From NCBI GenBank assembly GCA_016188625.1, contig JACPHL010000063.1, forward strand, positions 1 to 22,016: 22,016 nucleotides of DNA, given 5' to 3'. The translations under genes were made by a program, and so were the position numbers. The notes below the pieces were generated by a model. The model worked only from the letters and a program-made list of their open reading frames with translations, was not told the DNA's origin and did not search any database. This DNA comes from Candidatus Rokuibacteriota bacterium (GTDB lineage: Bacteria; Methylomirabilota; Methylomirabilia; Rokubacteriales; JACPHL01). Below are positions 9,002 to 22,016 of the stretch, in pieces. Position 1 is the stretch's first letter, and the number at the start of each line of letters is the position of its first letter.

Positions 9002-9939
9002 GGATCGTCTCCCTCATCCCCAGCGGGACCGAGATCGCCTGCCTCCTGGGCCTCGGGGAGCAGCTCATCGGGGTCAGCCACGAGTGCGACTACCCCCCCG
9101 AGGCGCGGGGCAAGTCGGTCCTCATCCGCCCGACCCTCGCCGCCGACCTCCTCGCCAGCGCCGAGATCGATCGGCGGATCGTCGAACGCCGGCGGGCCGG
9201 GGCGCCCGTCTACCTCCTCGACCCAGACCTCCTCGCCCGGGCCGCCCCCGATCTCATCCTGACCCAGGCCCTCTGCGACGTCTGCGCCGTCGGCTACCGC
9301 GACGTCGCCGCCGTCGCCGAACGGCTGCCGCGCCGGCCCGAGATCCTCTCCCTGGATCCGCGGACGCTCGGGGACGTGCTCGAGGACATCCAGCGCGTGG
9401 CCGCCGCGACCGGCGCCGTGGAGCGCGGCCGCGCGGCGGTCGCCGACCTCCGCCGCAGGATCGACCGCGTGGCCGGGCGGGTCCGGGAGGCCCGGGGCCG
9501 GCCCCGGGTGGCCTGCCTCGAGTGGCTCGACCCGCCCTATGCGGCTGGCCACTGGATCCCCGAGATGGTGGAGCGGGCCGGCGGGGTGGACGTCCTCGGC
9601 TCGAAGGGCTCCCCCTCGGTCCCGGTCGCCTCGGAAGCGGTGCGGGAGGCGCGGCCGGAGATCGTGGTCCTGACGCCGTGCGGCTTCGAGATCCCGCGCA
9701 CCCTCCGGGAGCTGGCCGGCCTGACGGAGCGCCCCGGGTGGTGGGACCTCCCCGCGGTCCGGGCGGAGCAGGTCTGGGTCGTGAACGGGCACGCCTACTA
9801 CAGCCGCTCCGGGCCCCGGCTGGTGGACGGCCTCGAGTACCTCGCCCAGATCCTCCACCCCGAGCTGTTCCCCTGGACCGCGCCTCTGGAGGCCGTGCTC
9901 CACCTCGATCTCTCGAGCGTCCCCGGGGATCGCGCATGA
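8998..9939 (+). CDS. Cobalamin-binding-like periplasmic-fold protein without signal peptide
   Basis: Resembles the BtuF/TroA class III solute-binding fold (PF01497 type): N-terminal MRIVSLIPSGTEIACLLGLG, a central long helix, and a C-terminal lobe with GWWDLPAVRAEQVWVVNG. At 313 aa it has the usual length, but it starts directly at the first beta strand with no secretion signal or lipobox, so as annotated it stays in the cytoplasm. It carries SHECDYP (Cys30) and CDVC (Cys93, Cys96), motifs seen in a sub-group annotated as cobalamin-binding protein. No permease or ATPase gene is adjacent. It overlaps the thioesterase by 4 nt. Ligand and role are unknown; a haem, corrinoid or metal-related function is possible. 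Confidence 0.72.
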   Translation: MRIVSLIPSGTEIACLLGLGEQLIGVSHECDYPPEARGKSVLIRPTLAADLLASAEIDRRIVERRRAGAPVYLLDPDLLARAAPDLILTQALCDVCAVGYRDVAAVAERLPRRPEILSLDPRTLGDVLEDIQRVAAATGAVERGRAAVADLRRRIDRVAGRVREARGRPRVACLEWLDPPYAAGHWIPEMVERAGGVDVLGSKGSPSVPVASEAVREARPEIVVLTPCGFEIPRTLRELAGLTERPGWWDLPAVRAEQVWVVNGHAYYSRSGPRLVDGLEYLAQILHPELFPWTAPLEAVLHLDLSSVPGDRA

Positions 9940-9974
9940 GGCATCTGGTGTCACAGCTTCGCTCTGAGGAGGCA

Positions 9975-10143
9975 TTCCGAGCGCCGGCTGTGCCGGCGCA
10001 ACCGGTGTGGGGAGGGAGGGCCCGATCCGTTCGCCGAAGGGCGAACGGCCAGGCTTTGCCTGGAGGGCCCTTTCGAACGGGGTCCCCGCCGGGCCGTAGG
10101 CCCGGTGGGGTGCTCGGAAGGGGGCAGCGCCCCCCTCCGAGGG
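9975..10143 (-). repeat. Hairpin-rich intergenic repeat, copy A (inverted, with internal insertion)
   Basis: Reverse-orientation relative of the two repeats at 18481 and 20642. Shared parts are the hairpin at 9981-9999 (8-bp stem GCGCCGGC, loop TGT) with flanking CCGAGCG and CGCAACC, a GGGGAGG stretch, and the G5/C6 hairpin at 10113-10141 bounded by CTCGG and CCGAG. Between these shared parts, copy A carries about 100 nt with three further hairpins: 10027-10048 (9-bp stem CCGTTCGCC), 10049-10063 (CCAGGC, loop TTT) and 10084-10110 (12-bp stem with one G.T pair, loop GTA). The whole gap between the cobalamin-binding-like gene and cruF is essentially tandem stem-loops. No protein gene is supported here. 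Confidence 0.7.
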
Positions 10144-10176
10144 ACTTGGCGCTTGCAAAGGCCCGCGGGAGGCAGT

Positions 10177-10961
10177 ATGCTGCGGGTGATCTCGGCCATG
10201 GCAGGGTTCGTCGAGCTCGCAGTCGGGACGGTGGCCCTGAGGCCCTATGTTTTCGCCTTCTTCCTGCTCTTCCTCTTCGCGGCGGTGGCCGAGCTCGGCT
10301 GGCGGCGGGCGGCGGCACTCACCGGCCTGGCCTTCGGCCTGGCCTTCGCCGCGGAGTTCTCCTCCACCCGGACCGGGATCCCCTTCGGGCTCTACCACTA
10401 CACCCAGGCGACCCGCGGGCAGGAGCTCTTCCTCGCCAACGTCCCCCTCATGGACTCCCCCTCTCCTTCACCTTCCTCGCCTACGGGTCCCTCGGCCTGG
10501 CCCGCCTGCTGCTCGCCTCGGCCCGGCCGGGGCCGCTGGTGGCGGTGAGCGGGCTCCTCTTCATGCTCCTCGACGTGGTCATCGACCCCCTGGCCGTGCG
10601 CGGGGACCGGTGGTTCCTGGGGCAAATCTTCTCCTACCCCGAGGGCGGGCCCTACTTCGGGGTGCCCCTGTCCAACTTCGCGGGGTGGCTGCTGCTCGGC
10701 TGGGCCATCGTCGGGGCCTACCTCGCCCTGGCCCCCCGGCTCGGCGGCGCGCCGCCGGCGTGGGCCGCGCGTCTGCCGGGCCGGGCCCTCTACGCGCCGG
10801 CGCTCTTCTACCTGGTGCTCGTCTTCAACCTGGCCGTGACGTGGGCGATCGAGGAGCCGGCCCTCCTCTGGGCGGGGCTCCTCGTCCACCTCCCCGTGGG
10901 GCTCCTCGCGCTGGCGCGGCTGGGCGAGACGCTTCCCCATCGGACCGAGCCCGCCGGATGA
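10177..10961 (+). pseudogene. cruF: CruF-type carotenoid biosynthesis membrane protein, frameshifted
   Basis: Multi-pass membrane protein of the PF04240 (CruF / bisanhydrobacterioruberin hydratase) family, expected to hydrate a carotenoid end group. Translation from ATG 10177 (GGGAGG 4 nt upstream) gives two hydrophobic segments and the family motif IPFGLYHYT...NVPLMDS. The frame must then change for LSFTFLAYGSLGLARLLLA and the remaining four or five hydrophobic helices ending at TGA 10959-10961. The break is in a run of five C at about 10457-10461: one C more, or two fewer, restores the reading frame. Total 785 nt (about 261 codons) matches the family length. The cause may be a sequencing or assembly error, a real mutation, or slippage. 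The stop overlaps an ATG (ATGA), and hpnH follows 40 nt later. Confidence 0.75.
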
Positions 10962-11001
10962 ACCCTCGGCGGAAGCTGCGATACATGGAGGGTTTCTAGA
11001 G

Positions 11002-12003
11002 ATGGGCACGCCGCTCGCGCAGAACCTCGAGCTGCTCGTCTACACGGCCCGGATGCGCCTCCGGGGGAAGCAGCGCTACCCCTTCGTCCTGATGCTGGAG
11101 CCCACCGAGCGCTGCAACGTCTCCTGCGACGGCTGCGGCCGGATCCGGGAGTACAAGGACCTCATGCACGTCAACATGAGCCTCCAGCAGTGCCTCGGGG
11201 CCGTGGAGGAGTCGGGGGCGCCGGTGGTCTCCCTCTGCGGGGGGGAGCCGACCGTCTACCCCTGGATCAGCGAGCTGGTCCAGGGGATCCTGGACCGGCG
11301 GCGGTGGATCTACCTCTGCACCAACGCCCAGACCCTCACGCGGACCCTCCACAAGTACCCCCGCTCCAAGCGTCTCATCTTCAACATCCACCTGGACGGG
11401 ATGGCCAAGACCCACGACGCCATCATGAACCTCCCCGGGGCCTTCGACCGCGCCATCGACGCCCTCAGGAGCGCCAAGGCGCGGGGGTACCGGGTCTGCA
11501 CCAACACCACCGTCTTCAAAGAGTCCGACCCCGAGGAGATCATCGAGCTCTGCCGACACGTCGCGAGCCTCGGGGCCGAGGCGCTCCTCCTCTCCCCCGG
11601 GTTCTCCTACACCGCGCTCCAGGGGGCCGACCTCTTCCTCGGCCGCGAGCAGACCCGCCAGGTCTTCCGGAGGATCTGGGAGGGGGTGAAGGACCTCCCG
11701 CTGGGGAACACCCCGGTGTACTGGGACTTCCTCATCGGGAAGAAGGAGCTGGCCTGCTCGGCCTGGGCCAACCCCACCTTCAACCCGGCGGGGTGGAAGG
11801 GCCCCTGTTACCTCATCACCGACCAGCACCACAAGACGTTCGAGGGGCTCATGGAGGACACCCCCTGGGAGCTGTACGGCACCGGCAAGGACCCGCGCTG
11901 CGCCCAGTGCATGGTGCACTGCGGCTACGAGGGGGCCGCCATCATCGAGTCGGGGAAGTCCATCCGGGACATGTGGAGGATGTTCCGGTGGAGCTTCCTC
12001 TAA
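11002..12003 (+). CDS. hpnH: Adenosyl-hopene transferase HpnH (radical SAM)
   Basis: Radical SAM enzyme that adds the 5'-deoxyadenosyl group of SAM to diploptene, giving adenosylhopane, the first committed step to extended C35 hopanoids. The 333-aa protein has the Fe-S cluster motif CNVSCDGC (Cys38, Cys42, Cys45), GGEP at 80-83, and the HpnH-type C-terminal domain with the Cys cluster RCAQCMVHCGYE. The N-terminus (YPFVLMLEPTERCNVSC) is typical of HpnH. ATG 11002 is preceded by GGAGGG at 10987-10992 (9-nt spacing). It overlaps hpnG by 16 nt, and the pair acts consecutively in the pathway. Confidence 0.94.
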   Translation: MGTPLAQNLELLVYTARMRLRGKQRYPFVLMLEPTERCNVSCDGCGRIREYKDLMHVNMSLQQCLGAVEESGAPVVSLCGGEPTVYPWISELVQGILDRRRWIYLCTNAQTLTRTLHKYPRSKRLIFNIHLDGMAKTHDAIMNLPGAFDRAIDALRSAKARGYRVCTNTTVFKESDPEEIIELCRHVASLGAEALLLSPGFSYTALQGADLFLGREQTRQVFRRIWEGVKDLPLGNTPVYWDFLIGKKELACSAWANPTFNPAGWKGPCYLITDQHHKTFEGLMEDTPWELYGTGKDPRCAQCMVHCGYEGAAIIESGKSIRDMWRMFRWSFL

Positions 12004-12710
12004 GACCGCTCCTCGTCCTCGTCGCCGTCGCCCACGAGGCGCGCGGCCTGGCCCGCCCGCTCCGGCTCGCCCGCACCTCGCATGGCTACGAGGCCCCCGG
12101 GGTCTTGCTCGTCCCCGTCGGGCTCCGGGCCTCGGCCCTCCCCCGCCTCGAGCCCGCCCTGACGGCCCTCGAGCCCCGTGCGGTCCTGATCGCCGGATTG
12201 GCCGGCGGGCTCGCCCCCGATCTGCGACCGGGGGACCTCATCGTCGCGAGCCCCGTACTCCAAGTCGACCGGGGGGTGGCGCTGGTCCCGGACCAGCCCC
12301 TCCAGGACCGGGCGATCAAGGCCCTGGAGGCAGGCCGCCTCCCCTTCCGCGTCGGCCCCCTCGTCACCGTGCCCGAGCCCGTCCCGACGCCGGAGGCCAA
12401 GGCGCGCCTCTGGCAGGAGACCGGGGCGCTGGCCGCGGACATGGAGAGCGCCCTGCTCCTCGACTGGGCGAGCCGGCGCGGCCTCCCGGCCGTGGCCGTC
12501 CGCGCGGTCGCCGACGGCCCCCGGGACCCGCTCCCGCCGGCCCTCCTCGACCTCGTCGCCGCCGACGGCCGGCTCCGCCCGGGCGCCCTCGCCGGGCTCC
12601 TGGCGCGCCCGGGGCGGCTCCGGGCCGCGCTCGCCCTCAGCCGGCGCTCCCGGGTGGCCCTCGGGCGGCTCGGGACCTTCCTCGACGCCTTTGCCTCCTC
12701 CCGGCCCTGA
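11988..12710 (+). CDS. hpnG: Hopanoid-associated phosphorylase HpnG
   Basis: Nucleoside-phosphorylase-fold enzyme that removes adenine from adenosylhopane, leading to (phospho)ribosylhopane. The 240-aa protein shows the purine/uridine phosphorylase pattern: N-terminal beta strand LLVLVAVAHEA, the glycine-rich segment LIAGLAGGLAPDLRPGDLIVA near 67-87, and ADMESALLLDWA near 150-161 with the purine-site Glu153. I chose GTG 11988, inside the hpnH 3' end, because GGAGGA lies 7 nt upstream and it gives the expected short lead (MELPLRPLL) before the first strand. The stop is shared with the next gene's apparent CTG start (CTGA). Confidence 0.9.
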   Translation: MELPLRPLLVLVAVAHEARGLARPLRLARTSHGYEAPGVLLVPVGLRASALPRLEPALTALEPRAVLIAGLAGGLAPDLRPGDLIVASPVLQVDRGVALVPDQPLQDRAIKALEAGRLPFRVGPLVTVPEPVPTPEAKARLWQETGALAADMESALLLDWASRRGLPAVAVRAVADGPRDPLPPALLDLVAADGRLRPGALAGLLARPGRLRAALALSRRSRVALGRLGTFLDAFASSRP

Positions 12711-13891
12711 CGCGCGCCCTTCGCCTCTCCCTGGCCCTGGCCTGGCTCCTCGCGCTCCCCGAGGCGCGCGCCGAGGTCTCCTTCATCCCGCTCCCGGCCT
12801 TCGACACCGACCCCAACGAGGGCGAGACCTACGGGGTGCTCCCGGTGGTGCTCTTCCGGAGTCCCGCGGGGGAGGTGGAGCGCATCATCGCCCCGTCCCT
12901 GACCTTCAACGAGATCCGCGGCGTCACCGGCACCTTCCGCTACTTCGGCTACCCCTCGCCGGACGAGCGGGTCCAGGCGATCCTCGGCTACTCCTCCCGG
13001 ATCGAGCGGGAGGTGGACCTGGGCTACCGGCACCTCGCCCTATTCGCCAACCGCTTCCACGTCGAGCTCCGCCTCCTCCACGAGCGGGACGCGGCGGTGC
13101 GCTTCTTCGGCCTCGGCGGGGAGAGCCGGGAGGAGAACGAGACCAACTTCACCCTGGAGACCACCGGGTTCAGGGGCCGCTTCGGGGTCAACGTCACCCC
13201 CACCGCCCGGCTGTCGCTGGGGGAGCGGGTCGAGAAGATCGAGATCCGCCGGGGGGGCGTCCGCGACCTCCCCTTCGTCGGGGAGCGCTTCCCGACCCTC
13301 CCCGGGCTCGGCGGGGCGGTGATCCACGCCCAGCGGGTGGCCTTCACCTTCGACACCCGGGATTCGCTGACCACCCCGACCCGGGGGGTCGCCGCCGGCG
13401 CCTTCCTGGAGGCCTCGGCGGAGGCGCTGGGGAGCGCGGCGAACTACGTGAGGATCGGGGGCGAAGGGGTCAGCCTGAACCCCGTCTTCGACCACCGGCT
13501 CGTCCTCGTCGCCCACGGCCTCGTCGAGGTGCTGAGCGGGGACGAGGACACCCCCTTCGTCGTCCGCCCCGCGCTGGGCGGGGAGGACACCCTCCGGGGC
13601 TTCGGGGCGAACCGCTTCTTCGGGGACGGCCGTCTCCTGCTGAACCTGGAGGCCCGGGTGCGCATGCTCCGGCTCGAGCTGTTCGGGGTCGAGGCGGAGT
13701 TCGAAGGGGTCCCGTTCGTGGACCTCGGGAAGGTCTTCACGAGCGTGGGGGCGGTCCACCGGGGGCGCCTCGAGGTGACCCCGGGGCTCGGGTTCCGCGC
13801 CCTGACCCGGCCGAACGTGGTCGGGCGGTTGGACATCGGCGTGGGACGCGAGGGGGCGGCCATCTTCGTCGGCCTCGACTACCCCTTTTGA
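12707..13891 (+). CDS. POTRA-less Omp85/BamA-like outer-membrane barrel
   Basis: Predicted outer-membrane protein with a signal peptide and an Omp85-type (bacterial surface antigen, PF01103) barrel but no POTRA domains. Reading from CTG 12707 gives a clear signal sequence (TRALRLSLALAWLLALPEARA, cleavage about residue 22/23), then FIPLPAFDTDPNEGETYG, FDTRDS at 215-220 with PTRG, the Omp85 loop-6 motif LRGF at 296-299, and an aromatic C-terminal residue (LDYPF) as BAM substrates have. No ATG, GTG or TTG is available in frame before GTG 12836, which would delete the signal peptide, so CTG or another non-standard start is likely. It overlaps the hpnG stop by 4 nt (CTGA). Its place between hpnG and hpnA suggests a role in envelope lipid handling, but that is inference. 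Confidence 0.8.
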   Translation: MTRALRLSLALAWLLALPEARAEVSFIPLPAFDTDPNEGETYGVLPVVLFRSPAGEVERIIAPSLTFNEIRGVTGTFRYFGYPSPDERVQAILGYSSRIEREVDLGYRHLALFANRFHVELRLLHERDAAVRFFGLGGESREENETNFTLETTGFRGRFGVNVTPTARLSLGERVEKIEIRRGGVRDLPFVGERFPTLPGLGGAVIHAQRVAFTFDTRDSLTTPTRGVAAGAFLEASAEALGSAANYVRIGGEGVSLNPVFDHRLVLVAHGLVEVLSGDEDTPFVVRPALGGEDTLRGFGANRFFGDGRLLLNLEARVRMLRLELFGVEAEFEGVPFVDLGKVFTSVGAVHRGRLEVTPGLGFRALTRPNVVGRLDIGVGREGAAIFVGLDYPF

Positions 13892-13901
13892 GGACGGCGG
13901 C

Positions 13902-14894
13902 GTGCCGGCGCTGGTGACGGGGGCGACCGGATTCATCGGGGCCACCCTCGTCCGGGAGCTCCTGGCCGAGGAGGAGGCGGTCCGGGTCCTGGCCCGTCCG
14001 ACGAGCGACCGGCGGGCCATCGAGGGCCTCCCCGTCGAGGTCGCGGTCGGCGATCTCCTGGACCCCGCTTCCCTCCCTGCGGCCCTCCGGGGCTGCCGGG
14101 TCCTCTACCACGTGGCGGCCGACTACCGGCTCTTCGCCCGCGAGCCGGCCCTCCTCTACCGGACCAACGTCGAGGGGACCCGGGCCCTGCTCCAGGCCGC
14201 CCTCGACCTCGGGGTCGAGCGGGTGGTCTACACCTCGAGCGTGGGGACCCTCGGCCTCCCCGGGGACGGGCGCCCCGGGACCGAGACCACCCCGGTCCGC
14301 CTCGAGGAGATGGTCGGGGATTACAAGCGCTCCAAGTTCCTTGCCGAGCGCGAGGCCGAGGCCTTCGCCGCCCGCGGCCTCGGCGTCGTGATCGTCAACC
14401 CCTCGGCGCCGGTCGGCCCCTGGGATGTCAAGCCGACCCCGACCGGCAGGATGATCGTGGACTACCTCCGGCGCCGGATGTTCGGCTACCTGGCCACGGG
14501 GCTGAACCTCGTCCACGTGCGGGACGTCGCGCGCGGGCACCTCCTCGCCGCCCGGATCGGGCGGGCGGGGGAGAGGTATATCCTGGGCCACGCGGCGGGG
14601 AACCTCTGGCTCCGCGAGATCTTCCAGCGCCTCGCGGCCGTGAGCGGGATCCCGGCGCCGCGCCGCCGGATCCCGTACTGGGTGGCCTTCGGCTCCGCCG
14701 CCGTCTGCGGGCTGGGGGCGCGCCTCACGGGCCGGGGGCCCCTGGCGTCCCGGACCGCCGTCCGGATGGCCGCCAAGCCGATGTTCTTCGACCCCGGGAA
14801 GGCCGTCCGGGAGCTCGGCCTCCCCCAGACCCCGGTGGACGAGGCGCTCCGGGAGGCGGTGGAGTGGTTCCGGGCCCACGGCTACGCCCCCTGA
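13902..14894 (+). CDS. hpnA: Hopanoid-associated sugar epimerase HpnA
   Basis: Extended short-chain dehydrogenase (NAD-dependent epimerase family) consistently found in hopanoid gene clusters; its exact substrate is unsettled. The 330-aa protein has the Rossmann motif TGATGFIG at residues 6-13, the AADYRLFA segment typical of HpnA, TSSVGTLG, and the catalytic pair Tyr141 and Lys145 (YKRSK). NPSAPVGPWDVKPTPTGRMI follows, also characteristic of HpnA. GTG 13902 lies 10 nt after the barrel gene, with GAGGA overlapping that gene's stop as ribosome-binding site. Last gene of the hpnH-hpnG-barrel-hpnA run. Confidence 0.9.
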   Translation: MPALVTGATGFIGATLVRELLAEEEAVRVLARPTSDRRAIEGLPVEVAVGDLLDPASLPAALRGCRVLYHVAADYRLFAREPALLYRTNVEGTRALLQAALDLGVERVVYTSSVGTLGLPGDGRPGTETTPVRLEEMVGDYKRSKFLAEREAEAFAARGLGVVIVNPSAPVGPWDVKPTPTGRMIVDYLRRRMFGYLATGLNLVHVRDVARGHLLAARIGRAGERYILGHAAGNLWLREIFQRLAAVSGIPAPRRRIPYWVAFGSAAVCGLGARLTGRGPLASRTAVRMAAKPMFFDPGKAVRELGLPQTPVDEALREAVEWFRAHGYAP

Positions 14895-14911
14895 GGACGG
14901 GGCGCCTCCCC

Positions 14912-14939
14912 TTGACCGGGGAGGGTCGCCGTGTATAAT
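14912..14939 (+). promoter_or_regulatory. Sigma70-type promoter of the hpnD operon
   Basis: TTGACC (14912-14917), 16-nt spacer, TATAAT (14934-14939). Transcription would start near 14946, about 32 nt before hpnD. A GGCGCC/GGCGCC stem with a 3-nt loop (14948-14962) lies in the leader. This separates hpnD and following genes from the hpnH-hpnA run. Confidence 0.75.
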
Positions 14940-14977
14940 CCAGCTACGGCGCCGCGGGCGCCGGGCCGGAGGTGCTG

Positions 14978-15823
14978 ATGAACGCGGCCGAGCTCTGCTC
15001 CGCCCTGACCCGCAAGAGCCGCTCCAGCTTCTACTACTCCTTCCTCTTCCTCCCCCGCGCCAAGCGGCAGGCCATCTACGCGGTCTACGCCTTCTGCCGG
15101 ACCGTGGACGACGTCGTGGACCTCGGGGGGAGCCCTGGGGAGCAGCGGCGGCTCCTGGCGGAGTGGCGGGCCGAGCTCGACCGCTGCTACGGCGGGCGCC
15201 CCGCCCACCCCATCGCGGTCCGGCTGGCCGAGGTGGTGCGCGACTTCCCGATCCCGCGCGCCTGCCTTGAGGCGATCGTGGACGGCGTCGAGATGGACCT
15301 CGACAAGCGCCGCTACGCGACCTTCGAGGAGCTCTACGAGTACTGCTACCGGGTCGCGTCAGCCGTCGGGCTCTCGTGCATCGAAATCTTCGGCTACACC
15401 GACCGGCGGGCCCGGGAGTACGCCGTGAACCTCGGGGTGGCGCTCCAGCTCACCAACATCCTGCGCGACCTCCAGCCCGACGCCGAGCGGGGCCGGATCT
15501 ACCTCCCCCAGGACGAGCTCAGGCGCTACCGCTACCCGGAGGAGGATCTCCTCCAGGGGCGCTACACCCCCGCCTTCGTGGAGCTCATGCGCTTTCAGGC
15601 CGAGCGCGCCCGGGCCTACTTCCGGGCCGCCCGGACCGCCCTGCCGCCCGCCGATCGCCGGCGGCTGGTCGCCGCCGAGATCATGGGGGCCATCTACTTC
15701 ACCCTGCTGGAGGCGATCGAGCGGCGCGAGTTCCGGGTCTTCGGGGAGCGGGTCCAGCTCTCGGCCCCCCGTAAGCTCGCCCTCGCCCTGGGCTGCTGGC
15801 TCCGCGCCATGCTCCGCCCGTGA
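14978..15823 (+). CDS. hpnD: Presqualene diphosphate synthase HpnD (squalene/phytoene synthase family)
   Basis: Condenses two farnesyl diphosphates to presqualene diphosphate on the HpnCDE route to squalene, the precursor of hopanoids. The 281-aa all-helical protein has both diphosphate-binding Asp motifs: DDVVD at residues 44-48 (after YAVYAFCRTV) and DLQPD at 164-168 (after LQLTNILR, followed by ERGRIYLP). The N-terminal SRSSFYYSFLFLPRAKR is typical of HpnD rather than HpnC. ATG 14978 has GGAGG 5 nt upstream; an in-frame GTG at 14972 is less well placed. hpnC and hpnE are not in the window. The stop overlaps the next gene by 4 nt (GTGA). Confidence 0.88.
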   Translation: MNAAELCSALTRKSRSSFYYSFLFLPRAKRQAIYAVYAFCRTVDDVVDLGGSPGEQRRLLAEWRAELDRCYGGRPAHPIAVRLAEVVRDFPIPRACLEAIVDGVEMDLDKRRYATFEELYEYCYRVASAVGLSCIEIFGYTDRRAREYAVNLGVALQLTNILRDLQPDAERGRIYLPQDELRRYRYPEEDLLQGRYTPAFVELMRFQAERARAYFRAARTALPPADRRRLVAAEIMGAIYFTLLEAIERREFRVFGERVQLSAPRKLALALGCWLRAMLRP

Positions 15824-16830
15824 AGGCCGCCGTCCACACCGCGCCCGGCCGGATCGCGCTTCAGGACTGGCCGACCCCCGGCATCGGGCCGGGGGAGCTC
15901 CTGCTCCGGGTCCGGGGGTGCGGGGTCTGCGGCTCCGACCTCGCCAAGTGGCGGGGCGCGGCCGAGCGGCCGGCGGTCCTCGGCCACGAGGTGGTGGGCG
16001 AGGTCGTCCGGGTCGGTGAGGGAGGCGAGGCGCCCTTCGCCGAGGGGGAGCGGGTCGTCGTGGCGCACCACGTCCCCTGCCAGGCCTGCCACTACTGCCT
16101 GCGGCAGAGCCCCTCCATGTGCCGGGCCTTCAAGGCCTCGAACCTCGACCCGGGCGGGTTCGCGGAGTTCCTCCGGGTCCCGGCCCCCAACGTCCGCTTC
16201 GCCACCTTCCGGATCCCCGAGGGGATGCCCGACGAGGTCGCCGCCTTCACCGAGCCGTTGGCCTGCGGTCTCCGGGCGGTCCGCCGGCTGAGTCTCCTCC
16301 CGGGCGATACGGTCGTGCTCCTCGGACTCGGCTCCGTCGGCTGCCTCCTCACCCAGCTCATCCGGCGGGCCGGGGGGCGGGTGCTCGGGGTGGACCCGCT
16401 CCCCGAGCGGCGGGCCCTGGCCCGGCGCCTCGGCGCCGACGAGGCGATCCCCCCGGAGGGGGTGGGCGAGCGGGTCCGCGCGGTGACCGAGGGGCGGGGG
16501 GCCGATCGCGTCGTCCTCGCCGTGGCGGACCCGGCCCTGGTCAGCCGGGGCTTCGACTGGGTGCGCGACGGCGGGGCGATCCACCTCTTCGCGGGGGAGG
16601 GCGAGACCGTGCTCCCGGTCGGGGCCCTCTACCACCGCGAGCTCACCCTGACCGCGACGTACTCCGCCTCCCCCCAAGAGCTGGCCGAGGCCTTCGGCCT
16701 CCTGGTGGACGGGGCCGTCCGGGTGGCGGAGCTGGTCTCGCACCGGATCCCCCTCGAGCGGCTCCAGGAGGCGGTGGGGCTGCTCGACCGCCGGCAGGCC
16801 CTGAAGGTCTTCGTGGAGGTGGGGCGGTGA
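15820..16830 (+). CDS. Zinc-dependent medium-chain dehydrogenase, copy 1 (sorbitol/threonine dehydrogenase-like)
   Basis: NAD(P)-dependent alcohol dehydrogenase of the zinc MDR family, 336 aa. The catalytic zinc ligands are visible as Cys37 (GCGVCGSD) and His56-Glu57 (LGHE). The structural zinc site is Cys87, Cys90, Cys93 and Cys101 (CQACHYC...C), and the nucleotide-binding motif is GLGSVG. Closest general resemblance is to sorbitol/L-threonine-type dehydrogenases; the substrate cannot be read. GTG 15820 overlaps the hpnD stop (GTGA), and the gene overlaps the second dehydrogenase in the same way, so hpnD and both dehydrogenases are translationally coupled. A role in modifying an isoprenoid or hopanoid product is inferred from that coupling only. 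Confidence 0.85.
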   Translation: MKAAVHTAPGRIALQDWPTPGIGPGELLLRVRGCGVCGSDLAKWRGAAERPAVLGHEVVGEVVRVGEGGEAPFAEGERVVVAHHVPCQACHYCLRQSPSMCRAFKASNLDPGGFAEFLRVPAPNVRFATFRIPEGMPDEVAAFTEPLACGLRAVRRLSLLPGDTVVLLGLGSVGCLLTQLIRRAGGRVLGVDPLPERRALARRLGADEAIPPEGVGERVRAVTEGRGADRVVLAVADPALVSRGFDWVRDGGAIHLFAGEGETVLPVGALYHRELTLTATYSASPQELAEAFGLLVDGAVRVAELVSHRIPLERLQEAVGLLDRRQALKVFVEVGR

Positions 16831-17852
16831 GGGCCCAGGTCTTCCACGGCCCGGGGGACCTCCGCTACGAGGAGCTGCCCGTCCCGACGCCCGGGCCCGG
16901 GGAGGTCCTCGTCCGCGTCGAGGCGGCCCTGACCTGCGGGACGGACGTCAAGGTCCTCCGCCGGGGCCACCCCCTCATGATCCCCACGGTCCCCACCGTC
17001 TTCGGCCACGAGCTGGCCGGGACGGTGGCCGCGGTCGGCCCGGGCGTCCGGACCGTGCGCGAGGGGGACCGGGTCGCGGTCGCCAACTCGGCCCCGTGCG
17101 AGGCCTGCCGGTACTGCCGGGCGGGCCGCCAGAACCTCTGCGACGACCTCCTCTTCGTCAACGGGGCCTACGGCGAGTACATGCTCGTCCCGCCCCGCGT
17201 CGTCCTCCGGAACCTCGTCCCTCTGGCCCCGCGCCTGGCCGCGCCCCGCGCCGCCTTCGCCGAGCCCCTGGCCTGCGCGCTCCACGCCGTCGAGGCCGCC
17301 GCCGTCGGGCCGGAGGAGCGGGTCGTCGTGTTCGGACACGGGCCGCTCGGCCTGCTCCTCGGGCTCCTCGCCCGGGCCCGCGGGGCGCGGGTGGTCCTGG
17401 TGGGCAGGGCCGGGCCCCGCCTTACCGTGGCGCGGGGCCTCGGGTTCGAGACCTGCCTGGACGTCACCGGGATAGACGATCCCGTCGCCGCCCTCCGCGA
17501 GGCCACGGGCGGGGTCGGGGCCCACCACGTCATTGACGCGACCGGACGCCCCGAGGTCTGGGAGCAGGCCGTCGCCGCCGCCGCCAAGGGCGGGACGGTG
17601 GTCTTCTTCGGCGGCTGCGCGCCCGGCACCTCGATCCGCCTCGACACCCGGCGGGTCCACTACGAGGAGCTCCGGCTCCTTGGCGTCTTCCACCACACCC
17701 CGGCCCTGATCTGCCGGGCCCTGGACCTCCTGGCCTCGGGGGGCGTGGACCCCATGCCGCTGGTGACCCATCAGATGGACCTCAAGGACGTCCCCGAGGC
17801 CCTGGCCCTCATGGCCCGGGGCGAGGCCCTCAAGGTGCTGATCCATCCCTAG
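16827..17852 (+). CDS. Zinc-dependent medium-chain dehydrogenase, copy 2 (sorbitol/threonine dehydrogenase-like)
   Basis: Second zinc MDR enzyme of 341 aa, clearly related to but diverged from the preceding one. It keeps the catalytic Cys37 (LTCGTD), His61-Glu62 (FGHELAG), and the structural Cys91, Cys94, Cys97, Cys105 (CEACRYC...C). The nucleotide-binding motif is GHGPLG. The start is GTG 16827, whose bases overlap the previous stop (GTGA); this gives the expected short N-terminus MRAQVFHGPGDLRYEE. Two intact, tightly coupled, diverged MDR genes suggest either two successive oxidoreductions or a hetero-oligomer. Substrate unknown. pagL-like follows after 22 nt, probably in the same transcript. 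Confidence 0.86.
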   Translation: MRAQVFHGPGDLRYEELPVPTPGPGEVLVRVEAALTCGTDVKVLRRGHPLMIPTVPTVFGHELAGTVAAVGPGVRTVREGDRVAVANSAPCEACRYCRAGRQNLCDDLLFVNGAYGEYMLVPPRVVLRNLVPLAPRLAAPRAAFAEPLACALHAVEAAAVGPEERVVVFGHGPLGLLLGLLARARGARVVLVGRAGPRLTVARGLGFETCLDVTGIDDPVAALREATGGVGAHHVIDATGRPEVWEQAVAAAAKGGTVVFFGGCAPGTSIRLDTRRVHYEELRLLGVFHHTPALICRALDLLASGGVDPMPLVTHQMDLKDVPEALALMARGEALKVLIHP

Positions 17853-17874
17853 CTGAAGAGAGGAGAGCCGACCG

Positions 17875-18477
17875 ATGCGACCTGCTCCCCGCTGGTCCTT
17901 CCTGCTCATGGGGTTGCTCGTCCTCATCGCCGATCCCGTCGCCGCCCAGCCGCCCCGGGAGGGGCTCCGGGCCGGGATGAAGGAGCTGACGCTCGCCGGC
18001 GGCTACACGGTGAGCCACGACATCCCCTCAGGGGCCGGGCCCACGGTCCGATCCGTTCTGGTAATGCCGCGCCTCGGCTACGTCCTGACCGATCCGGCGG
18101 GTTCGGCCCCGCTGCGGGGGACCCTCGAGGTCGTCGGGGAGCCGTTCGTCCAGCTCTTCACCGACCCCGCTGAGCGGGCCGGCGTTGGCGCCTCGGCGCT
18201 CCTCCGGTGGATCTTCGCTACGGGGACCGCCTTCCTCCCCTACGTGGAGGGGGGGGTGGGGGTGATGGGGAACGAGGACCTCGATATCCGCCAGAACAAC
18301 TGCAATGTCAACTTCGTCGTCGAGGGCGGGGTCGGCGGCCTCGTCTTCCTGGGCGAGCGGTGGGCCCTGACCGGCGGCTACCGCTTCCAACACGTCTCCA
18401 ACGCCAACATCTGCTCCCAGAACCTGGGGATCAACTCGAGCCTCTTCACCCTCGGGGTCAGCTATTTCTTCCCCTAG
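17875..18477 (+). CDS. pagL: PagL-like outer-membrane lipid A 3-O-deacylase family protein
   Basis: Small outer-membrane barrel of the acyloxyacyl hydrolase (PagL) family, which trims an acyl chain from lipid A. The 200-aa product has a signal peptide (MRPAPRWSFLLMGLLVLIA, cleavage near residue 24 after VAA) and amphipathic strands. The PagL active-site block is YRFQHVSNANI, with His173 and Ser175 at the catalytic His and Ser positions. The position of the catalytic Glu (Glu140 in the Pseudomonas enzyme) is Asn187 (GIN), so the triad is altered, as in many family members. It ends SYFFP. ATG 17875 follows AGGAG at 17861. It lies behind the hpnD-MDR-MDR genes and is followed by repeat copy B. 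Activity on lipid A is unproven. Confidence 0.75.
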   Translation: MRPAPRWSFLLMGLLVLIADPVAAQPPREGLRAGMKELTLAGGYTVSHDIPSGAGPTVRSVLVMPRLGYVLTDPAGSAPLRGTLEVVGEPFVQLFTDPAERAGVGASALLRWIFATGTAFLPYVEGGVGVMGNEDLDIRQNNCNVNFVVEGGVGGLVFLGERWALTGGYRFQHVSNANICSQNLGINSSLFTLGVSYFFP

Positions 18478-18480
18478 GTA

Positions 18481-18613
18481 CCTCGGAGGGGGGCTTCGCC
18501 CCCCTTCCGAAACCTCCCCCCAAGGCTGCGCGGGCCAAGCCCGCGCTCGGAGCGGACCACCCAATGCGAGGGCGGACAGTCCAGAGCGCGCGAGCGCACA
18601 GCGTTACTCGGAC
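18481..18613 (+). repeat. Hairpin-rich intergenic repeat, copy B
   Basis: About 133 nt directly after the pagL-like gene and closely similar along its length to 20642-20774; copy A at 9975 shares its core. Hairpin 1 (18484-18509) pairs G6C with GC6 around a TTC loop and extends through CGGA/TTCCG with one bulge. Hairpin 2 (18528-18546) has an 8-bp perfect stem GCGCGGGC with loop CAA. The shared right end is CAGCGTTACTCGGAC. The first hairpin may also act as a transcription end or 3' stabiliser for pagL, though no T-run follows. The remainder of this 326-nt gene-free gap (18614-18803) holds the ispH promoter and leader. Confidence 0.8.
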
Positions 18614-18696
18614 GTACCCTTCGCGCGCGTGGTCTCAGGCGGTACCCCGGCGCTGGGAAGGAGGAGGACGGGCCATGGGAGAGACCGAGGGGAACC

Positions 18697-18725
18697 TTGA
18701 AAAGGCCCGGGGGGTCCGCTATACT
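18697..18725 (+). promoter_or_regulatory. Sigma70-type promoter of ispH
   Basis: TTGAAA (18697-18702), 17-nt spacer, TATACT (18720-18725). A start near 18732 gives a leader of about 72 nt before the ispH GTG. This shows that ispH is separately expressed from the upstream pagL operon, and it rules out in-frame start codons upstream of the promoter. Confidence 0.75.
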
Positions 18726-18803
18726 GAGGGCCGTTTCCAGTGGGCCCGGTGGGGCGAATCGGCCCTCCGGACATCCCGGTCACCCCAATCCAGGAGGATC
18801 CCG

Positions 18804-19787
18804 GTGGGTTTGAAGGAGGTCGTGCTGGCCGGCCCCCGCGGCTTCTGCGCCGGGGTCGAGCGGGCGATCGAAATCGTCGAGGAGGCCCTCGAGGTCGTGG
18901 GGGCTCCGATCTACGTCCGGAAGGAGATCGTCCACAACCGGCACGTGGTGGACGCCCTGGGGGCCAAGGGGGCGATCTTCGTGGACGAGCTGGATGAGGT
19001 CCCGCCCGGGGCCACGGTGGTCTTCAGCGCCCACGGCGTCGCGCCGGAGGTCCGCGAGCGGTCCCGGGGTCGCGGGCTCCGGGTGATCGACGCGACCTGC
19101 CCGTTGGTGACCAAGGTCCACCTGGAGGCGATCCGCTACGCCCGCGCCGGCTACACCATCATCCTGGTGGGACACGAGGACCACGACGAGGTGATCGGGA
19201 CGACCGGCGAGGCCCCTGACCGGATCCGGGTGGTCGCCGACGTCGAGGAGGCCGAGGCCCTGGAGGTCCCGGACCCCTCGCGGGTCGCCTACCTCACCCA
19301 GACCACGCTCTCCGTGGACGACACCCGGGCGGTCATCGAGGTCCTGCGCCGCCGGTTCCCCGGGATCGTCGGCCCCTCCAAGGACGACATCTGCTACGCG
19401 ACCCAGAACCGGCAGGCCGCCGTGAAGGAGCTCGCCCGGCAGGTGGACGTGGTCCTGGTCCTGGGGGCGGCCAACAGCTCCAACGCGAACCGGCTCCGGG
19501 AGGTGGCGGAGGCGGCGGGGGCGCGGGCCCACCTCATCAACGATGTCCGGGACATCCGGGCCGAGTGGTTGGACGGGGCGCGGAAGGTCGGGGTGACGGC
19601 CGGGGCCTCCACCCCCGAGTTCCTCGTCCGGGAACTCGTCGAGCTCCTGGAGACGCCGGGCCACACGACCGTCCGCGAGCTCCGCGTGGTGGACGAGGCC
19701 GTCAAGTTCGCCCTCCCCCCTGAGCTGATGGAGATCGCCCGGGAGGCGGGCAAGCCGCTCGGCCGATCGAGCCCGCTGAGTTCATAG
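18804..19787 (+). CDS. ispH: 4-hydroxy-3-methylbut-2-enyl diphosphate reductase
   Basis: Iron-sulfur enzyme that performs the last step of the MEP pathway, making IPP and DMAPP from HMBPP. The 327-aa protein has the three cluster cysteines Cys14 (GFCAGV), Cys99 (DATCP) and Cys197 (DICYAT). It also has His45 (VHN), His77 (SAHGV), His127/Glu129 (HDEV), TQTTLS near 165-170 and SSNANR near 225-230 for substrate binding. GTG 18804 was chosen because AGGAGG lies 6 nt upstream and the N-terminus then begins at the first strand; the frame is open further upstream but crosses the promoter. It supplies C5 units for the hopanoid and carotenoid genes nearby. An intrinsic terminator follows. Confidence 0.96.
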   Translation: MGLKEVVLAGPRGFCAGVERAIEIVEEALEVVGAPIYVRKEIVHNRHVVDALGAKGAIFVDELDEVPPGATVVFSAHGVAPEVRERSRGRGLRVIDATCPLVTKVHLEAIRYARAGYTIILVGHEDHDEVIGTTGEAPDRIRVVADVEEAEALEVPDPSRVAYLTQTTLSVDDTRAVIEVLRRRFPGIVGPSKDDICYATQNRQAAVKELARQVDVVLVLGAANSSNANRLREVAEAAGARAHLINDVRDIRAEWLDGARKVGVTAGASTPEFLVRELVELLETPGHTTVRELRVVDEAVKFALPPELMEIAREAGKPLGRSSPLSS

Positions 19788-19810
19788 CCGACCCGGGATC
19801 GCGCGCGCGG

Positions 19811-19853
19811 CCGCCCCTTCCCCCGGCCCAGGGCAAGGGGCGGTGCTGTTTTT
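19811..19853 (+). terminator. Rho-independent terminator of ispH
   Basis: The 9-bp stem CCGCCCCTT (19811-19819) pairs with AAGGGGCGG (19835-19843), extended inward by CCC/GGG after one mismatch. TGCTG and a run of five T (19849-19853) follow. It lies 24 nt after the ispH stop, and its end reaches to 20 nt before the SDR start. Confidence 0.8.
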
Positions 19854-19873
19854 GACCGGGAAAGGAGAGAGGG

Positions 19874-20640
19874 ATGAAGCTCGAGGGGCGGGTGGCCATC
19901 GTCACCGGCGGCAGCCGGGGCATCGGCCGCGCGACGGCCCGGGCACCCGGGAGGGGGCCCGGGTCGTGATCAACTCGCGCGCCGAGGAGCGCGCGCGGGC
20001 CGTGGCCGATCGGCTGGTCAAGGAAGGGGCGGAGGCGATCGCGGTCGCCGCCGACGTCTCCCGGAAGGCGGAGGTGGACCGACTGGTGGACGCGGCCGTC
20101 CAGGCCTGGGGGCGGCTCGACGTCATGGTCAACAACGCCGGGACCTCGATGATCGTCCCCTCGGTCGAGCTCGGCGAGGCCGACTGGCGCCGGACCATCG
20201 ACCTCAACCTGACCGGGGCCTTCCTGGGCTGCCAGGCCGCGGCCCGCGTCATGATCCCCCAGGGGGGCGGCTCGATCATCAACATCGGCTCGATCCTCGC
20301 CGAGGTCGGGCTGCCGAAGCGGGCCGCCTACTGCGCCTCCAAGCACGGTCTCGTCGGGCTGACGCGGGTCCTGGGCACGGAGTGGGCCCGCCACGGGGTG
20401 CGGGTGAACTGCCTCAACCCGGGCTACATCAAGACCACCATGGACGTCCACGACCAGACGGTGGGCGACTACACCGACGCCGACATCCACCGCCGGACCC
20501 CGGCCGGCCGCTTCGGGGGCGTGGACGAGGTGGCCCGGGCGGCCCTCTTCCTCGCCTCGGACGACGCCGCCTATATCAGCGGGGACACCCTCAACGTGGA
20601 CGGCGGCTGGGTCGCCTACGGCGGCTGGGGCAACTATTAA
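19874..20640 (+). pseudogene. Short-chain dehydrogenase/reductase (FabG-like), frameshifted near the N-terminus
   Basis: Classical NAD(P)-dependent SDR, role unknown. ATG 19874 (AAAGGAGAG upstream) reads MKLEGRVAIVTGGSRGIGRATARA, the normal cofactor-binding start with the TGxxxGIG motif. This frame then fails at about 19945, and the protein continues in another frame as REGARVVINSRAEERARAV. The rest is intact: NNAG, catalytic Ser in NIGSIL, YCASK, and the C-terminal DGGW. Around the junction, six bases of the usual two codons before REGAR are reduced to two, consistent with a 4-nt deletion (767 nt present; 771 would give 257 codons). The junction sits among three closely spaced CCCGGG sites, so slippage or an assembly error are both possible. 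Repeat copy C follows directly. Confidence 0.8.
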
Positions 20641-20641
20641 T

Positions 20642-20774
20642 CCTCGGAGGGGGGCTTCGCCCCCCTTCCGAACCTCCCCCCAGGGTTGCGGCGGCAAAGC
20701 CGCCGCTCGGAGCGGACCAGTCAAGCCGCGAGGCGAGGTTCAGGGCGTGGAAGGGCACAGCGTTTATTCGGACA
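20642..20774 (+). repeat. Hairpin-rich intergenic repeat, copy C
   Basis: Same orientation as copy B and similar over its full length, from CCTCGGAGGGG to CAGCGTTTATTCGGAC. Hairpin 1 (about 20645-20670) is identical in stem and TTC loop to that of copy B. Hairpin 2 (20688-20706) has the stem GCGGCGGC with loop AAA: two base pairs differ from copy B, and both partners have changed so pairing is kept. It fills most of the gap between the SDR and the FAD oxidoreductase. Confidence 0.8.
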
Positions 20775-20793
20775 GGCCAGGCCGGAGGCGGCG

Positions 20794-22016
20794 GTGAGCG
20801 AGGCGGCGCAGGTCGTCGTCGTGGGGGGCGGGATCTGGGGGTGCGCCATCGCCTACCACCTGGCCCGGGCCGGCGTCCGGGACGTCCTCGTGCTGGAGCG
20901 CCGCGAGCTCGCCTCGGGGAACACCTCGCAGGCGGCGGGCCTGGTCGGCCAGCTCCGGGCCTCCGAGCCGATCGCCCGCGCCATCATGGGGGTGGTCGCC
21001 CGCCTCGTCCGGTGGGAGGCCGAGCACGGGGAGGATCCGGGCTTCCGCCAGGTCGGGAGCCTGAAGCTCGCCCTCACCGAGGCGCGGGTCGCCGAGCTGG
21101 AGGCCCACGTCGCCCAGGCCCGGCGCTGGGGGCTCGAGGTCGAGCTGATCCCGCCCCACGAGGCCCAGGTCCGCGTCCCGCTCCTCGAGCCGAAGGGGGT
21201 CAGGGCGTGCGCCTTCATCCCGAGCGACGGCTACGCCGAGCCCTACACCCTGGCCCAGGCCCTGGCGCGCGCGGCCCGGCGGCTCGGGGTCCGGTTCAGG
21301 ACCTGGACCCCGGTGACCGCGATCGGCGTCCGGCGCGGCCGGGTGACGGGGGTCGAGACGCCCGAGGGGCCGGTCGCCGCTGAGACGGTCGTGGTGGCGG
21401 CCGGGCCGTGGGTCGAGCTGATCGGCGCCTGGCTCGGGCTCCGCCTCCCGATGATCCCGATCCGCCACCAGCTCTGGGTCACCGCGCCCCTGGACGGGAT
21501 CCCGCGGGAGATACCGGTGGTCCGGGTCCCCGACGCCTCGGTCTACATCCGCCCGGAGGTCGGGGGGCTCCTCCTCGGCGGCTTCGAGGGGCGGCCGAAG
21601 AGCGTGGCCATGGCGGAGCTGCCGTCCGCCTTCACCATCGAGGAGACCGAGAAGGACCTCGGGGTCCTGGAGGAGCTCGGCGCCGGGCTCACCCGGGCCT
21701 TCCCGGCCCTCGGGGCCGCCCCGATCATCCGGGGGTGCGCGGGGCTCCCGACCTTCACCCCGGACGGGGAGTACCTGATCGGCCCGGTCCCCCGGGCGGC
21801 CGGGCTCTTCATCGCGGCCGGGTGCAACGCCGTCGGGATCGCCGGCGCGCTCCTGATCGGCGAATGGCTGAGCGAGCTGATCCTGGAGGGGAAGACCGCG
21901 GTGGACACCTCGGCCCAGGCCCTGGGCCGCTTCGGGGCCCGCTACCGGAGCCGCCGGCGGCTCCGGGCGGAGTGCGAGTCGATCTACGCGAACTTCTACA
22001 GCCTCGACAAGGGGGC
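20794..22016 (+). CDS. FAD-dependent oxidoreductase, sarcosine/dimethylglycine dehydrogenase type (3' end outside window)
   Basis: DAO-family flavoprotein, open from GTG 20794 to the right edge (407 codons). The GTG is 5 nt after GGAGG (20784-20788). The N-terminus VVVVGGGIWGCAIAYHLARAG is a dinucleotide-binding fold. SGNTSQAAGLVGQLR matches the FAD-contacting block of sarcosine/dimethylglycine dehydrogenases, and GLFIAAGCNAVGIAGA is the C-terminal FAD contact. After about residue 370 the text (RFGARYRSRRRL...IYANFYSL) looks like the linker leading to a GcvT-like folate domain, which would lie beyond the window. A demethylating or amine-oxidising role is family-level inference; the gene may be about twice the visible length. 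Confidence 0.85.
   Translation, partial: MSEAAQVVVVGGGIWGCAIAYHLARAGVRDVLVLERRELASGNTSQAAGLVGQLRASEPIARAIMGVVARLVRWEAEHGEDPGFRQVGSLKLALTEARVAELEAHVAQARRWGLEVELIPPHEAQVRVPLLEPKGVRACAFIPSDGYAEPYTLAQALARAARRLGVRFRTWTPVTAIGVRRGRVTGVETPEGPVAAETVVVAAGPWVELIGAWLGLRLPMIPIRHQLWVTAPLDGIPREIPVVRVPDASVYIRPEVGGLLLGGFEGRPKSVAMAELPSAFTIEETEKDLGVLEELGAGLTRAFPALGAAPIIRGCAGLPTFTPDGEYLIGPVPRAAGLFIAAGCNAVGIAGALLIGEWLSELILEGKTAVDTSAQALGRFGARYRSRRRLRAECESIYANFYSLDKG

Follow-up and report, generated by a model that had tools for sequence, protein, structure and literature searches.

The window analysed here, a whole stretch of 22,016 nucleotides of DNA, contains three intergenic copies of a repeat, which raise the question of what kind of element this is and whether it affects the genes beside it. 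The initial annotation described the copies as having a common two-hairpin core, in which the stems of hairpin 2 differ among copies and the opposite arm matches each time. We found hairpin 1 in all three copies (A, B and C), and all three hairpin 2 stems are as they had been given. Scores in the following list refer to R1, a covariance model built from 22 copies.

18474..18477, + strand: left-end CTAG of copy A (sequence; CTAG enriched at left ends, also where no stop is required)
18475-18477, + strand: TAG stop codon of the gene upstream of copy A, inside the left-end CTAG
18480..18622, + strand: copy A, full-length element, forward (R1 146.3 bits, E 4e-33)
18483..18510, + strand: hairpin 1 of copy A (sequence; family covariation)
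18513..18521, + strand: CCTCCCCCC of copy A, which is GGGGGGAGG on the other strand (sequence; conserved in the family)
18528..18546, + strand: hairpin 2 of copy A, GCGCGGGC-CAA-GCCCGCGC (sequence)
20641..20782, + strand: copy B, full-length element, forward (R1 135.4 bits, E 2e-30)
20644..20671, + strand: hairpin 1 of copy B (sequence)
20673..20681, + strand: CCTCCCCCC of copy B, GGGGGGAGG on the other strand (sequence)
20688..20706, + strand: hairpin 2 of copy B, GCGGCGGC-AAA-GCCGCCGC (sequence)
9976..10143, - strand: copy C, reversed composite (weak R1 halves at 10038-10143 and 9912-10026)
10114-10140, - strand: hairpin 1 of copy C (sequence)
about 9981-9999, - strand: hairpin 2 of copy C, GCGCCGGC-ACA-GCCGGCGC (sequence)

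Copy B starts 2 nt after the TAA stop codon (20638-20640) of an SDR gene. In copy C, roughly 115 nt with other palindromes lie between hairpin 1 and hairpin 2, and because this stretch splits the hairpins, the copy scores only as two weak R1 halves. A second palindromic module (TTCGCC..GGCGAA) occurs within copy C (10000-10113) and also at three other loci of the same genome (L060, L098 and L109).

The frames 10177-10548 and 10539-10961 overlap and look like two parts of one membrane protein gene (10177-10961) interrupted by a frameshift, which may be an error of assembly. Positions 11002-17852 hold an apparent hopanoid/terpenoid cluster, with what sequence features suggest to be an hpnH-like radical SAM protein and a squalene/phytoene synthase-like protein.

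Family size and structure

The covariance-model search of the genome and its relatives that the initial annotation had proposed places the three copies in a large family. The window's own MAG (G000; 2.6 Mb, 84% complete) yielded 42 matches in a DNA search and at least 143 R1 matches at E<=0.01 among the 150 candidates scored, and the exact core pattern matched 89 times, versus once for a reversed-pattern control. Many of the G000 matches fall at the ends of contigs, for example C58, C281, C70, C35, C137, C299 and C343. The assembly has therefore probably been broken up by the repeat, whose copy number would then be higher than counted. R1 matches occur in 57 of the 59 order-level genomes searched, G000 included, and outside the order there was one match, a weak one, among 35 other genomes of the class. 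Around ispH, 4 of 29 loci in relatives have R1 matches. No Rfam model matched at gathering thresholds.

The conserved core of about 75 nt consists of hairpin 1, CCTCCCCCC and hairpin 2, and a variable tail extends the element to about 140 nt. The forward consensus begins with CTAG, 4 nt, CTCGGAGGGGGGC-loop-GCCCCCCTTCCGA, 1 to 3 nt and CCTCCCCCC. It continues with approximately GGTTGCG plus hairpin 2, CTCGGAGCGG, the variable tail, ACTCGGACGGGCTC and CTAG. Alignment columns in G000 have a mean identity of 0.91 across the first 75 or so positions and of 0.75 across the tail.

The stem changes keep their pairing: for 84 copies at 80 loci in other genomes, standard pairs fill 97.7% of the pair cells and 88 cells have changes on both sides, compared with 29.5 in shuffles, in an alignment that favours structure because it was fitted to R1. 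Sliding the pair partners abolishes the covariation signal, and one hairpin 2 pair alone accounts for 40 double changes. The initial annotation took paired changes in the window to mean that structure is conserved. The compensatory changes do extend throughout the family. Selection on the stems as structures, as judged from the alignment, is plausible and indeed likely but not proven, since hairpin self-correction during replication also yields paired changes.

Element ends and gene context

Genes around 200 copies (116 in G000 and 84 in relatives) were called with a simple finder that scores codon usage and had the window as its training sequence. In many copies, exactly 4 nt separate the stop codon of the upstream gene from CTCGGAG, and hairpin 1 often begins 4 nt after the stop. 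The ends of the element carry CTAG, which has a TA core and often doubles as the stop codon of the neighbouring gene, and CTAG is above background at both ends. At the left end, it is also found where the neighbouring gene runs in the opposite direction and no stop is needed (7/33 and 11/36, with p about 1e-8 and 1e-14, respectively). At the right end, 6 of 47 copies whose next gene is codirectional have it (p 6e-5).

In G000, the stops that abut the element are TAG in 35 cases, TAA in 27 and TGA in 13, whereas other genes compared in this genome have 120 TGA, 42 TAG and 19 TAA. Given this difference in usage, the common denominator is the TA core inside CTAG-like sites. The stop codon itself was considered as the signal and was ruled out by the CTAG ends that occur where no stop is needed. 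Insertion at CTAG or YTAR sites with a TA core would place copies flush with stop codons and leave the gene undamaged, because TAG and TAA contain this core.

Counting orientation relative to genes, which the initial annotation had also suggested, showed that the intergenic copies lie between codirectional genes in 124 cases, convergent genes in 46 and divergent genes in 5 (n=175). Gene pairs from these loci that lack the element number 151, 9 and 24, respectively (n=184). Convergent pairs are therefore enriched around the element (46/175 vs 9/184) and divergent pairs are depleted (5/175 vs 24/184).

Probable mobility

The element is a high-copy intergenic repeat, probably mobile and non-autonomous, that occurs mainly in one order. 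The REP/MITE-like character proposed in the initial annotation is borne out by copy number, intergenic location, CTAG-tagged ends and compensatory stem changes. Because G000 yielded neither a Y1 (RAYT) nor an IS630 transposase, we infer mobility, and with it a mobilising enzyme, from copy number, the ends and the comparison of occupied with empty junctions. With regard to a possible target-site duplication, CTAG exceeds background at both ends; at the trpA-accD site, G000 reads GGCTAG...TTAGCCGATG, and relatives in which the site is empty, none of them of the same species, read CTAGCCATG.

The link to a TnpA-REP (Y1) transposase that had been suggested was not supported. PF01797 has no match in G000 (84% complete), is absent from most high-copy relatives and, where it occurs (11 of 59 genomes), does not track copy number, and mobilisation by this enzyme was rejected on the lack of a gene in G000 and of a link to copy number. 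IS630 has a target of the same kind, but no IS630-type DDE_3 gene was found in G000 (84% complete), its presence in relatives does not track copy number, and its ends differ, so it too was rejected. In one relative (G003), an IS630-like element (L474, 236-1395) is inserted in a CTAG, with one copy of the repeat immediately on either side. The inverted repeats of this IS630-like element are unlike the ends of the repeat. No parental IS with matching ends was identified in G000 or the relatives searched. Clear terminal inverted repeats are absent from the repeat, whose outermost few consensus bases are weakly alike (similar to CTAGGTGCC on the left and GGCTCCTAG on the right).

Reversed copies upstream of start codons

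In the transcript of a reversed copy, hairpin 2 is followed by GGGGGGAGG and then, after 1-3 nt, by hairpin 1, which a short gap separates from the gene. A start codon lies 1-13 nt from hairpin 1 in 36 of 67 reversed copies (29 ATG and 7 GTG), and in none of these 36 does the gap between hairpin 1 and the start contain a Shine-Dalgarno sequence. The GGAGG of the element is kept in nearly all reversed copies. When hairpin 1 is excluded, GGAGG is 4-16 nt from the start, with a median of 8 nt (32 reversed copies with parsed geometry), and native GGAGG sites at the same loci have a median spacing of 7 nt; the range is bounded by the 13-nt cut-off, so this agreement is consistency and not proof. 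The genes after reversed copies are genuine, have plausible N-termini and count housekeeping genes among them. Judged by sequence features, they presumably include gyrA, accD, argC, recO, hpt, pdhB, icd, rplC, uvrC and adk.

In the window, no copy is both reversed and flush with a start codon. The reversed copy C is followed by a start (10177) only after about 33 nt, and that start has its own GGGAGG.

Several observations temper the significance of this geometry. A strong Shine-Dalgarno sequence precedes 46% of ordinary genes at the same loci (138/297), so a gene that lacks one is not unusual. Forward copies conserve GGGGGGAGG to about the same degree, which a role in ribosome binding alone does not explain. 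Folding prediction has GGAGG partly paired (mean unpaired 0.30). Hairpin-flush starts number 0/65 in forward copies versus 36/67 in reversed copies, but on the hairpin 2 side there is always further element sequence, so this comparison makes the orientation bias look larger than it is. With distances taken from the ends of the element, the effect of orientation weakens: it is significant in G000 (p 0.003) and not in relatives (p 0.41).

Orthologous junctions show the same arrangement repeatedly. Without the element, the trpA stop adjoins the accD start, as in CTAGCC-ATG (L341) and GTAGCC-ATG (L343). In all eight occupied trpA-accD sites found, from several genera and two families, the element is reversed and hairpin 1 lies 3-12 nt from the ATG. 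At rpsJ-rplC, five copies are reversed and close and one is forward and far; in one reversed copy (L420), the GGAGG before hairpin 1 has been lost. Two copies at uvrB-uvrC are reversed. These counts are not independent: the genes were chosen on the basis of a known occupied site in one or more genomes, and common ancestry may account for some of the copies. Upstream of rplC, two genomes (L394 in G013 and L406 in G011) have a variant element in which hairpin 1 is different and is preceded by a GGTGGAGAAGG stretch; it too is directly upstream of a start codon.

Alternative explanations

The repeat could simply be selfish, a REP/MITE-like element that persists where it does least harm, next to stop codons or within the short gaps of operons. 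GGAGG near starts would then be incidental, and translation of the downstream genes would depend on coupling or on weak sites. The CTAG ends would account for stop-codon contiguity, the equal conservation of the core in both orientations is as expected, and REPs elsewhere lie near gene 3′ ends and supply TAG stops (PMC3733652). However, such a repeat does not predict a recurrent GGAGG at near-native spacing on the start-facing side, or the all-reversed independent sightings at trpA-accD, and we consider it a rather unlikely full account. It is improbable that forward copies are the functional ones, with a hairpin 4 nt after the stop acting as a 3′-end element that stalls ribosomes, stabilises mRNA or causes Rho-independent-like termination, and that reversed copies are tolerated leftovers. 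The frequent 4-nt distance and the enrichment of convergent pairs would fit, as would the stalling of ribosomes by E. coli REPs at most 15 nt from a stop codon (PMC12306157). By contrast, copies A and B have no U-tract terminator (no terminator-like site, i.e., GC stem plus U-tract, occurs at 17800-21200), reversed copies are as numerous in relatives (34 codirectional copies reversed and 23 forward), and they recur at orthologous sites. Copies in the forward orientation, A and B among them, may still have a REP-like 3′-end role (PMC12306157).

BIMEs bind DNA proteins, and strong GC palindromes are present here in both orientations, so a protein-binding palindrome at the DNA level (a nucleoid or gyrase site) for which orientation is irrelevant could also be imagined. 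This would predict neither the spacing to start codons nor the single orientation at orthologous junctions, and we regard it as highly improbable.

A candidate split ribosome-binding site

The reading that we favour is that the REP/MITE-like element is, on one strand, also a portable "split" ribosome-binding site. Based on the sequences, this is somewhat probable and is not demonstrated: conservation in forward copies, partial pairing of GGAGG, the frequency of ordinary genes with a strong Shine-Dalgarno sequence and the weak orientation effect in relatives all hold down our confidence. The two strands would act differently. In the forward orientation, hairpin 1 would start about 4 nt after the upstream stop, and downstream genes would use their own promoter or Shine-Dalgarno sequence. 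In the reversed orientation, looping out hairpin 1 would bring GGAGG to normal Shine-Dalgarno spacing, and the split site would replace the stop-start coupling that the insertion had broken. The family, its range across the order, its CTAG ends, the contiguity with stop codons, the order of Shine-Dalgarno, hairpin and start, and the recurrence of this order at orthologous junctions are computational findings; ribosome use of GGAGG, like mobility and the mobilising enzyme, is inferred.

If ribosomes do use GGAGG, the family would be a natural repeated experiment in which translational coupling is swapped for a portable initiation site, and the tolerance of insertions inside essential operons would be explained. 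A Shine-Dalgarno sequence about 40 nt upstream of the start would still be in place once the hairpin was looped out. More tentatively, a repeat that is probably mobile might spread split ribosome-binding sites through operons across the order. Insertion in one orientation might rewire translation of the essential genes gyrA, accD and rplC, so that a shared Shine-Dalgarno sequence gated by a hairpin takes the place of stop-start coupling, and these genes could be co-regulated; we hold this wider scenario to be possible, with the odds somewhat against it. The order-wide family, the coincidence of CTAG with stops, and the antisense Shine-Dalgarno sequence with a hairpin directly before start codons all go beyond the initial annotation.

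Comparison with known systems

Bacterial interspersed repeats are usually viewed as passengers or 3′-end elements. In the open-licence literature that we searched, we found no description of a repeat that carries its neighbours' Shine-Dalgarno sequence, and a MITE review among the sources searched does not mention ribosome binding.

The family is REP/MITE-like in distribution, but departs from RAYT-REPs and IS-derived MITEs in the features that define them. Like GTAG-/CGTC-tagged REPs, whose termini can supply a TAG stop (PMC3733652), and like REP/BIME in E. coli, it consists of high-copy intergenic palindromes near gene 3′ ends that are depleted between divergent genes. RAYT-associated REPs, however, are single palindromes of 20-40 bp with a GTAG tag and a Y1 transposase in the genome, whereas this repeat has two hairpins in its core plus a longer tail, mostly CTAG about 4 nt before the hairpin, and no such transposase in G000. 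Judging by the title of Tenzen and Ohtsubo 1991, as given in the references of PMC2170065, the target of IS630 is TA in CTAG. The repeat resembles IS630/Tc1-mariner-type MITEs in being short, non-coding, repeated and associated with a TA-containing target; unlike them, it has no clear terminal inverted repeats and no parental IS with matching ends.

Two systems are related to the proposed role in translation. TAACTGA repeats in marine Beggiatoaceae are abundant and intergenic, lie over the ribosome-binding region and have a proposed role in translation (PMC4679880), but are unstructured direct repeats of a heptamer without Shine-Dalgarno character, unlike the two-hairpin repeat. Closer in geometry are genes 38 and 25 of T4, which have split ribosome-binding sites in the order Shine-Dalgarno, hairpin and AUG (PMC3014915). 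There, and putatively here to judge by the sequence, an intervening hairpin brings the Shine-Dalgarno sequence to the start codon; the T4 cases are single-gene arrangements in a phage, whereas the present arrangement belongs to a dispersed repeat.
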